Made by a program: the position numbers and the translations under genes. This document shows positions 15,151 to 18,385 of a DNA stretch of 45,072 nt, in pieces (the first letter of the stretch is position 1; every line of letters begins with the position of its first letter). The notes under the pieces are model-generated. The model had not been told where the DNA came from, ran no database searches, and saw nothing but the letters and a program-made list of their open reading frames with translations. This DNA comes from Bacteroidales bacterium (GTDB taxonomy: Bacteria > Bacteroidota > Bacteroidia > Bacteroidales > UBA932), in the NCBI GenBank assembly GCA_012515395.1, contig JAAYYL010000017.1, positions 1 through 45,072 on the forward strand, written 5' to 3'.

Positions 15151-16776
15151 CTAGGCAGGATCTACATCTATCCGGCATTGTGCGGGAGAACAGGAATGCT
15201 GTTTGATAATTGCCGCCAGTCTGTCTTTTACGTTTTGAGCATTGAGGTTTCTGGGTATAATGAGCTGAATACGGTAAGCAAATACAATTTTCCGGGTTCC
15301 GACGGGACAGAATGGGCCCTCGGTACGGGCCGGAAAATCTGCTTTTACAAGCATTTCGCCAATCTCTGAAGCTTTTTTACCGGCAGTAGTTTTCCGGGCA
15401 TGGGATACAGTAAGCCCAATCATGCGTGTATGTGGCGGGTAGTTGTAGCGGATCCTTTCTTCCAATAAATGCGATAAAGTAAGGTAATGATCTTCTTCCT
15501 TAATCCATTGGTAAAACGGATGATCTGTTTCAGCAGTTTGAAATATGACCGGGATTGCAGGTGTTTGTGATGATGCCCAGGTCAATGCATGAACCGCCAG
15601 ATGGAGAGCCTGTTCCGTGGCCCTGAAATGTTTTCGGGACAATAGCTTTTCCGTATGAAGAAAACAGATCATGCCCGTTTTTTCTTCCAGGAAATGATGC
15701 AACCGGTAAGGCCGGCATACTTTTATACCGGAATCTCCGGGGGCATCTTCCAGGTAATCGGGATCGGATTCCACCAGCAGCACTTCTTTTCCATTGTCAA
15801 TTACCTCCCGGGCCGTACGGACAGTCTTTATGTCCAGAACACCTTTCATGGCATTGCTGATCAGGGATTTGACTGTGTCGATAATAATAAGCGGGGCCCG
15901 GAGAAAGTTCTTTTCCTGTACTTCTGCCAAATGTTGAAATTTGTTTTTTTTCAGGTTGTAAAAGGTCTCGAGCGATGGAATTACAGAGCCCAAAATAACC
16001 TGAGCCCGGAACATTTGTCCCATCATCAGGGCTGTATCCCTGGAATGAAGATGCGGTGCTGCATCTTGTTTTTTGTGTCCCGGATGTTCTTCCATATCTA
16101 CCAGGATCAGGCCCAAACGCGTAAAGGGAAGAAACAAGGCGTGATGCATACCGCAGACGATACAGGGATTCCCTGCATAAAGCTCTTTCTGGGCGCGGCT
16201 TTGTTCTTTCATAGGACGTTTTGAATGAAAGCAGAACAGGGTCTGTCCGAATAACGGTAACAACTTTTCGTAAATGTTTTCACAGGCAGCTCTGTCCGGT
16301 TCCAGGATCAGGCACTGTCCACCGGCTTCGATCATATTTTGGAGCTGTTTCCCGTAAAAACCAATCCGTTCAGGACCACTAATATACAGTGGTTTGCCAA
16401 CCTTAGGCAAAAGGAATGTTTCTGTTCCGGAAAATACGCTGCGTCTTTTGAATTTCCACAGGCTCAATGCCTTTTTTGCTACCGTACCGGGGGGACACAT
16501 GTAATAGCGGGCGATCCATTCCCAAAATTTTAAAGTTTGTTCAGGGATTACAGGCAGCGATTTTTCCACCCCTGTGACTTCTTTATAAGTTTCTTCAGAA
16601 CCGGGTAAAGGTTCGTTTTTGTGTATACGCCATACAATGCCCGTGTAGCTTTTTTGACCCACGGGAGCCTGAACCTGTTTCCCGGGAAACACTTCCGGGG
16701 CAAATTCGCCCGGGATCTTGTATGTAAGAAGGTTTTCCAGGGCAAGTGGAAACAAAATATCGGCGTAAGTTTCCAT
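15151..16776 (-). CDS. Compact PriA-like primosomal protein lacking catalytic helicase motifs
   Basis: Start set at METYADILFPLALENLLTYKIP (TAATG overlap with the ispH stop) rather than the listed ORF start at 16842. PriA 3'-DNA-binding N-terminus (KFWEWIARYYMC), relic VDMEEHPGHKKQDAAPHLHSRDTALM, GSVIPSLETFYN, C-terminal YNYPPHTRMIGLTVS...DVDPA; no Walker A and no Cys-rich zinc module. Confidence 0.85.
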   Translation of the reverse strand: METYADILFPLALENLLTYKIPGEFAPEVFPGKQVQAPVGQKSYTGIVWRIHKNEPLPGSEETYKEVTGVEKSLPVIPEQTLKFWEWIARYYMCPPGTVAKKALSLWKFKRRSVFSGTETFLLPKVGKPLYISGPERIGFYGKQLQNMIEAGGQCLILEPDRAACENIYEKLLPLFGQTLFCFHSKRPMKEQSRAQKELYAGNPCIVCGMHHALFLPFTRLGLILVDMEEHPGHKKQDAAPHLHSRDTALMMGQMFRAQVILGSVIPSLETFYNLKKNKFQHLAEVQEKNFLRAPLIIIDTVKSLISNAMKGVLDIKTVRTAREVIDNGKEVLLVESDPDYLEDAPGDSGIKVCRPYRLHHFLEEKTGMICFLHTEKLLSRKHFRATEQALHLAVHALTWASSQTPAIPVIFQTAETDHPFYQWIKEEDHYLTLSHLLEERIRYNYPPHTRMIGLTVSHARKTTAGKKASEIGEMLVKADFPARTEGPFCPVGTRKIVFAYRIQLIIPRNLNAQNVKDRLAAIIKQHSCSPAQCRIDVDPA

Positions 16777-17657
16777 TACATATTCCGGACTTTTTCCGCT
16801 ACCTGTTCCATAAGCCAGTACGGAGTGGACGTGGCTCCGCATATCCCTACCGAGTCGCCCGGTTTAAACCATTGGGGATCAATGTCATTGGGATTCTCTA
16901 TGGAATAACTTCGCGGGTTGGCTTCTTTGCATGTTCTATAAAGAACTTTTCCGTTGGAGCTCTCTCTGCCTGCCACAAAAAGTATCAGCGATTTTCCTGC
17001 GGCAAAGCGTGTGAGCGCTTCCTGCCTGCCGTCAACCTGAGCGCATATGGTATTGAATATTTTTAACAATCCCGGATCAATCCCTTTTTCCACCATTAAA
17101 ATGCGCAATTTGTCGGCTGTTTTTTTGTATTCCCCGGGATTTTTGGTGGTTTGGGAGAACAGGGAAACGGGCCCGCCAGAAAAACGGACCTGATCAATAT
17201 CTTTCAATGTTTCAATTACAATGGCATCACCGGAGACTTGTCCCAGCAGGCCGACCACTTCCGCATGTCCTTTTTTTCCGAAGATCAGGATCTGTCCGTC
17301 CATGGGTTTGATCCTGTCGTATTCTTTCAGGATCTTTTTTTGCAATTGCAGTACTACAGGGCAAGTGCACTCCAGAAGGGCAATGTTGTTGGAACGGGCC
17401 ATGGAATAAGTCAGAGGCGGTTCTCCGTGTGCACGGATCAAAACGGTTGACCCTGTTGAAAGGTCGCTCATATCCTCCCTTGTGATTACACGTAATCCTT
17501 TGGATTCCAAACGGTGCAGCTCCTCGTTATTGTGTACGATGGCTCCCAGAGAATAAACCGTTTTCCTTTCGTCAAGCGCTTCTTCTGCACATTGAATGGC
17601 CCGTATGACTCCGGAACAAAAACCTGACTGTTTATCTATTTCAACCTGATACCCCAT
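16776..17657 (-). CDS. ispH: 4-hydroxy-3-methylbut-2-enyl diphosphate reductase
   Basis: SGFCSGVIRAI, IRAHGEPP, CTCPVV, NTICAQVDGRQEAL: the three Fe-S cysteines are present. Confidence 0.95.
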   Translation of the reverse strand: MGYQVEIDKQSGFCSGVIRAIQCAEEALDERKTVYSLGAIVHNNEELHRLESKGLRVITREDMSDLSTGSTVLIRAHGEPPLTYSMARSNNIALLECTCPVVLQLQKKILKEYDRIKPMDGQILIFGKKGHAEVVGLLGQVSGDAIVIETLKDIDQVRFSGGPVSLFSQTTKNPGEYKKTADKLRILMVEKGIDPGLLKIFNTICAQVDGRQEALTRFAAGKSLILFVAGRESSNGKVLYRTCKEANPRSYSIENPNDIDPQWFKPGDSVGICGATSTPYWLMEQVAEKVRNM

Positions 17658-18337
17658 TTTTCCTCCATGATTTTTTTAAACCAATCCAGTTGTTCTTCTA
17701 CGCTCATACTTCCGTTGTCCAGCAACAGGGCATCAGGCGCTTTCACCAGGGGATGTGTTTCCCGGTGGGAATCCACGTAATCCCGCTGACGCACGTTGGC
17801 CAGCACCTGGGCGAAGGTTGCCTCCATTCCTTTTGCCTTCAGTTCCCGGAGCCTTCGGTCGGCACGGATCTCTGCCGGAGCGGTCATAAAGATTTTCAAC
17901 TCGGCCCGGGGAAACACGGCAGTCCCGATATCCCTGCCGTCCATAACGATTCCTTTTTTCTCTCCCCGTTTTCTAAGCTGAAAATCCACAAAATCCCGGA
18001 CAAGCGGGATTTCAGATACCGGACTTACATGAGCTGAAACTTCCATGCTTCGTATTCGCTCTTCCACATCTTTCCCGTTTACATACGTTCGGTTCTGACC
18101 TGTTTGCGGATCTTTGACAAAAGTAAGCCTGATATCTTTCAGATGGTCAACGATGGCTTGGGCATTTGGTTTCCCTTCCGGACTTATCCATCCGTGATCC
18201 AGGGCGTACAAGGTAACTGCCCGGTATAGCGCTCCGGAATCCAGGTATGTATAATCCATTACCTTGGCAATGGCTTTGGCGAATGTACTTTTTCCCGTAG
18301 AAGAGTGGCCGTCTATGGCTATGATGATCTTCTTCAT
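17636..18337 (-). CDS. cmk: Cytidylate kinase
   Basis: MKKIIIAIDGHSSTGKSTFAKAIAK, YLDSGALYRAVT, DGRDIGTAVFPRAELKIFMTA. Start placed at MKKIII, not the listed 18385. Confidence 0.95.
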   Translation of the reverse strand: MKKIIIAIDGHSSTGKSTFAKAIAKVMDYTYLDSGALYRAVTLYALDHGWISPEGKPNAQAIVDHLKDIRLTFVKDPQTGQNRTYVNGKDVEERIRSMEVSAHVSPVSEIPLVRDFVDFQLRKRGEKKGIVMDGRDIGTAVFPRAELKIFMTAPAEIRADRRLRELKAKGMEATFAQVLANVRQRDYVDSHRETHPLVKAPDALLLDNGSMSVEEQLDWFKKIMEEKWGIRLK

Positions 18338-18385
18338 AATGTGACCCAAATGTAAATGAAAATCTCCTATTTGTGAAATTCCCAC

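Follow-up and report, generated by a model that had tools for sequence, protein, structure and literature searches.

A probable PriA pseudohelicase as the only PriA found in a Bacteroidales genus, and repeated loss of the PriA motor in its family

Why PriA retains a helicase that is dispensable for replication restart in E. coli is an old question; ATPase-dead E. coli PriA is proficient both in primosome assembly in vitro and in restart in vivo (PMC4504706, PMC10175261). The window (the whole stretch of 45,072 nucleotides that was analysed) belongs to a Bacteroidales genome of 1.55 Mb in 199 contigs that is 79% complete, and a sequence-only reading of it had noticed an intact 541-aa frame, coupled to ispH by a TAATG overlap, with PriA-like ends and a gutted middle. 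The frame is indeed intact and lies on the minus strand, with its ATG at 16776 and its stop codon at 15151-15153, as the third and last gene of a cmk-ispH-priA unit (Table 1), and the ispH/priA junction reads tgTAATGgaa, confirming the overlap.

Table 1. Features of the compact priA gene and its neighbours, in window coordinates.
Feature	Position	Strand	Basis
Compact PriA pseudohelicase gene (probable), 541 aa	15151..16776	-	ORF, Pfam, NCBIfam, model, Foldseek
3'-DNA-binding domain (3'BD), residues 1-108	16453..16776	-	Pfam PF17764, E 4.7e-22
Short linker, residues 109-128, where the canonical winged-helix domain is absent	16393..16452	-	Landmark spacing
RecA-like lobe 1, catalytically degenerate, residues 129-290	15907..16392	-	Alignment to 4nl4/6dgd; model
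GPERIGFY at the place of the P-loop (GVTxSGKTEIY); 3 residues deleted, no GKT	16354..16377	-	Alignment, spacing
Degenerate motif II, VDMEEH for VDEEH	16084..16101	-	Alignment
Motif III GSVIPSLET, kept	15964..15990	-	Alignment
Reduced RecA-like lobe 2, residues 291-427	15496..15906	-	Model; spacing 50 vs 144
Site without cysteine-rich zinc module and motif V, about residues 337-366	15679..15768	-	Alignment, spacing
LAVHALTWAS at the place of motif VI (QVAGRAGR)	15571..15600	-	Alignment
PriA C-terminal domain, residues 428-541	15154..15495	-	Pfam PF18074; model
ispH, 1-base overlap with priA (TAATG)	16776..17657	-	ORFs, junction sequence
cmk (cytidylate kinase), overlaps ispH; first in cmk-ispH-priA unit	17636..18385	-	ORFs

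Both ends of the protein proved to be recognizably PriA. Pfam PriA_3primeBD (PF17764) matches with E 4.7e-22 and PriA_C (PF18074) with E 1e-4, at 23.5 bits just below its cut-off of 26.9, and both domains are found in all 11 members of A1, while the DEAD family leaves only a trace. The best NCBIfam match is PRK05580 PriA, at 182.1 bits where the equivalog cut-off stands at 813; a second PriA model scores 140.7 bits against 230.35, and all matches are to PriA models except one at E 0.16. In an automatic alignment from which the motif states were read by eye, the protein lacks the P-loop, the zinc module and motifs V and VI, its motif II is degenerate and its motif III is kept, in agreement with the earlier description of VDMEEH, GSVIPSLET and the lost P-loop and zinc module. 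The P-loop is absent in all congeners, and the zinc module is missing from every motif-dead PriA that we tabulated. The P-loop GVTSSGKTELY of the canonical Bacteroidales PriA of genome G060 corresponds to GPERIGFY in the window protein; the stretch YISGPERIGFYGKQL, previously placed at 16348-16392, lies at 16342-16386.

The spacing of landmarks indicates what was deleted. The window protein has 42 residues between the 3'BD and the P-loop, against 222 in the G060 protein, and 50 between the beginning of lobe 2 and the landmark before motif VI, against 144, arguing that the winged helix and the zinc module together with motif V were removed, whereas the 3'BD (90 vs 90 residues), lobe 1 (199 vs 205) and the C-terminal part (155 vs 159) are nearly unchanged in length. 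The suggestion that LAVHALTWAS replaces motifs V and VI thus stands for motif VI only. The winged helix is missing as had been proposed, but its loss is no mark of dead PriAs, because motif-intact family members are short there too: the same stretch has 67 residues in the motif-intact protein of G028 (a 685-aa open frame). Other Bacteroidota have motif-intact PriAs of only 668-683 aa.

An AlphaFold model of the window protein, computed from an alignment of 24 relatives, has a mean pLDDT of 89.2 and a pTM of 0.90 and includes the C-terminal domain. Compared with PriA structures by Foldseek, it gives TMq values of 0.71-0.82, in line with the PriA assignment of the sequence-only reading, and the closest PDB entry is 6dcr, E. 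coli PriA delta-WH (TMq 0.82), followed by other PriA entries. Because its closest structure is a PriA without the winged helix, the reduced protein is predicted to be still laid out like PriA, with the 3'BD followed by two RecA-like lobes and the C-terminal domain. The SSB pocket of K. pneumoniae PriA includes Trp82, Tyr86 and Lys370 (PMC5531588), and these positions are mostly kept in the compact PriA, as in its canonical relatives. The pocket residues Arg697 and Gln701 are unconserved across Bacteroidales generally, and Gln701 was dropped as special evidence since canonical Bacteroidales PriAs do not conserve the equivalent Gln either.

The compact gene is the only priA that we found in its genus. 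Searches of the window genome and its 12 congeners with TIGR00595, PF17764 and NF004066 recovered no second priA; the remaining matches to PriA models correspond in length to Mfd, UvrB and RecG, and the identity of RecG was confirmed. Orthologues are present in all 12 congeneric genomes, which include public Bacteroidales MAGs such as ADurb.Bin139, UBA5226 and UBA1374; they are 39-67% identical, none is broken by a stop, and more than 100 columns are invariant in an alignment of 11 orthologues. A scan of the contigs of the named genomes with the single protein gave no match, and the genus alignment as query did match. A search for signs of phage origin gave no PHROG match. The order cmk-ispH-priA is found in 13 of 13 genus genomes, and the same cmk-ispH place is occupied by a full-length, motif-intact priA in four genomes from other genera of the family (G019, G020, G023 and G033); in G036 such a gene accompanies ispH alone. 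Two intermediates, G025 and G030, also carry the cmk-ispH-priA order.

Pairwise dN/dS (NG86, with dS near saturation in many pairs and saturated in distant ones) is about 0.16-0.22 for priA in the window genus and about 0.06-0.14 for ispH; dead priA pairs from other genera give 0.08-0.29 and two canonical pairs 0.08-0.12. These estimates indicate that priA is under clearly purifying selection that is somewhat relaxed, because it evolves faster than ispH and the canonical priA pairs. Mean identity within the genus is 57% in lobe 1, 56% in the 3'BD and 47% in lobe 2, the lowest among the folded domains, and the dead motor lobe 1, being as conserved as the 3'BD, seems to retain a structural job. 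Between two species of the genus (loci L038 of G006 and L015 of G009), priA is 84% identical (dS 0.49) and the adjoining ispH 77% (dS 1.35); as priA is far closer than its neighbour, a recent exchange of priA between them is suggested. Both of these priA genes have repeat-like insertions in the linker.

Decay of a pseudogene or paralogue, with the true priA elsewhere, would fit the lost catalytic motifs and the faster evolution relative to ispH; yet the 13 genomes, including nine that are 92-99% complete, yielded no other PriA, and the gene sits at the orthologous priA place under constraint and free of stops in all relatives, making this reading most improbable. An assembly or binning artefact that removed the middle of the gene might be suspected in an incomplete genome of 199 contigs, but its probability is practically negligible: the same architecture recurs in 12 other genomes, including MAGs from several sources, so that 13 independent assemblies agree, and an N-run inside priA occurs only in G008. 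In that genome an apparent frameshift (L037 2520-2735) was rejected, as the split frame is an N-run flanked by short repeats, probably a scaffold gap. The sequence-only reading thus withstands the objections that it had itself named.

Two further alternatives accept a functional gene. The protein could have been repurposed, binding branched DNA or SSB in some other role, such as shielding forks and D-loops or tethering recombination proteins, while restart became independent of PriA. Loss of the zinc module, which in E. coli PriA is the element for PriB and the lagging strand (PMC10175261), fits this reading, and restart partners are little studied in Bacteroidota. Against it, the 3'BD and the C-terminal domain are retained, a PriA pseudohelicase in Deinococcus still binds its own DnaB (PMC4504706), and PriC and DnaD were looked for in the genus genomes and not found; with both absent, no other known restart initiator was found. 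We regard repurposing as unlikely. A cryptic ATPase with a non-canonical site, for which the two predicted RecA-like lobes and the kept motif III might speak, is very unlikely given a P-loop three residues shorter without GKT, the missing motif VI and a similar state in independent lineages.

Altogether, we favour a model, likely as a whole, whereby the compact gene is the orthologous sole priA of its genus turned pseudohelicase, and its product is an ATP-independent fork-recognition scaffold for reloading DnaB. In this model, the protein would still recognize abandoned forks and D-loops: the 3'BD would read the nascent leading 3' end, the lobes and the C-terminal domain would hold the lagging arm, and the SSB tail would dock at the pocket with the kept Trp, Tyr and Lys positions. 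The platform so formed would serve to reload DnaB, probably with the loader DciA, which has been proposed to work with PriA at forks (PMC9825169). DnaB, DciA and an SSB with a DDLPF tail are present in all seven genus genomes searched for them; RecG is above cut-off in six of the seven and split in the seventh. Restart would proceed without PriC and probably without PriB, and any unwinding of the lagging strand would fall to a different helicase, with RecG as a candidate. The zinc module of E. coli PriA is the dock for PriB, forms a wall of the ssDNA pore and carries a hairpin essential for unwinding (PMC10175261). Since the E. coli route needs this module, handover to DnaB would have to differ without it, and since unwinding needs it too, ATP use would be pointless after its loss; we therefore infer, from one intermediate (G025), that the zinc module was lost first and that the ATP site decayed later. 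A sole copy kept by selection without a motor suggests that recognizing the fork can be enough for restart.

The best precedent, experimentally shown and absent from the sequence-only reading, is the PriA of Deinococcus radiodurans, an orthologue that has neither ATPase nor helicase activity, still binds forks as well as its DnaB, and has been proposed to act in DnaB reloading (PMC4504706). For the compact PriA, the same combination of lost activities and retained fork and DnaB binding is a prediction. The Deinococcus protein has Arg in place of the Walker A Lys and a degenerate Walker B, whereas in the compact PriA the P-loop is shortened beyond recognition and the zinc module, motifs V and VI and the winged helix are gone. 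The two belong to different phyla and have separate origins, and the compact type arose several times in one family. The putative actinobacterial orthologue, described as 'smaller and very divergent' (Rocha et al. 2005, PMC1193525), is also reduced. That the window protein is independent of it, as previously proposed, is supported by its scores (182 bits with PRK05580 vs 55 with the actinobacterial PRK14873) and by its nearest relatives outside the genus, which are Bacteroidales PriAs. With the E. coli and K. pneumoniae proteins (4nl4, 4nl8, 6dgd, 8fak) the compact PriA shares the 3'BD, two RecA-like lobes, C-terminal domain and SSB-pocket Trp, Tyr and Lys, but not the winged helix, cysteine-rich region, P-loop or motifs V and VI. 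The E. coli K230R and K230A proteins assemble primosomes without ATPase activity (PMC4504706, PMC10175261), but they are laboratory mutants with all domains present. Because these precedents exist, the compact PriA is a recurrent, more reduced variant and no new kind.

How recurrent it is had been understated. We searched 300 genomes of the family, which we take to be GTDB UBA932, and read PriA closely in about 65 of them. Loss of the P-loop is seen in 13 of 13 genomes of the window genus (g1), in the three read of g13, in the three read of g19, and in 12 genomes of g23, presumably Cryptobacteroides, 16 others of which have a canonical PriA. Each dead PriA is also without the zinc module; a recognizable motif V persists in two g19 proteins, and the intermediate G025 (g14) has lost the zinc module and kept GEPASGKSE and motif VI. 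By way of control, among Bacteroidota relatives taken from named genomes, nearly all those outside the clade have a P-loop with GKT, a DEEH or DEEQ sequence, the cysteines of the zinc module and an intact motif VI; the single protein lacking a P-loop, L072, carries the label of a different phylum. No PriA match was obtained in several g10 and g11 genomes, including G022 (95% complete), which reflects gaps or real loss.

A DnaB tree, used as a stand-in for the species tree, requires no fewer than four changes and speaks against a single dead clade (p-AU 3e-6). When the motif columns are removed, a PriA tree likewise requires four losses, in g1 plus g19, in g13, in G296 plus G317, and in ten other g23 genomes. 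Judged by these single-gene trees, the motor is lost at least four independent times in one family, two of them inside g23. Horizontal spread of one dead priA was rejected: the dead copies group with their own genera, so they would have arisen in place without transfer between genera, and the DnaB tree rejects one clade. A family with at least four losses and intermediates is a natural experiment on the purpose of the motor and the zinc module, and compact PriAs offer small cores with which the ATP-independent restart of DciA-using bacteria could be reconstituted.

An 8-residue GxxRxxxY turn stands at the P-loop in three lineages, g1, the ten-genome g23 branch and G317, each time shortened by three residues and with its Arg at one shared position (L154, L156, L163 and L167 in g23; L152 in G317; 16354-16377 in the window). 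In G317 the region reads GAGRIPLY, plainly of separate origin since the sister G296 still has GPGDTEKTDIY. It is tempting to speculate, though we think it rather unlikely, that this recurrence, together with the repeated loss of the zinc module and P-loop, reflects convergence on a rigid fork clamp that needs no ATP. The Arg turn would then hold the lobes in place of bound nucleotide, and the clamp would work directly with DciA and DnaB. If true, the fork clamp would constitute a minimal restart pathway without PriB, DnaT, PriC or the PriA helicase.

Two observations lie beside these losses. In L072, labelled Candidatus Atribacteria, a 663-aa ORF from 3940 has no P-loop (LSYRERDLYY), a VEQEN motif II and kept zinc cysteines, and may represent a pseudohelicase PriA that arose independently outside the Bacteroidota. 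In two g12 species, one represented by a single-contig genome, a single open frame of 969 codons, counted from stop to stop, runs through ispH and priA (L217, G023:C1:670300-674600; L216, G253:C88:44300-48200) where the window has the TAATG overlap, pointing to a possible IspH-PriA fusion protein.
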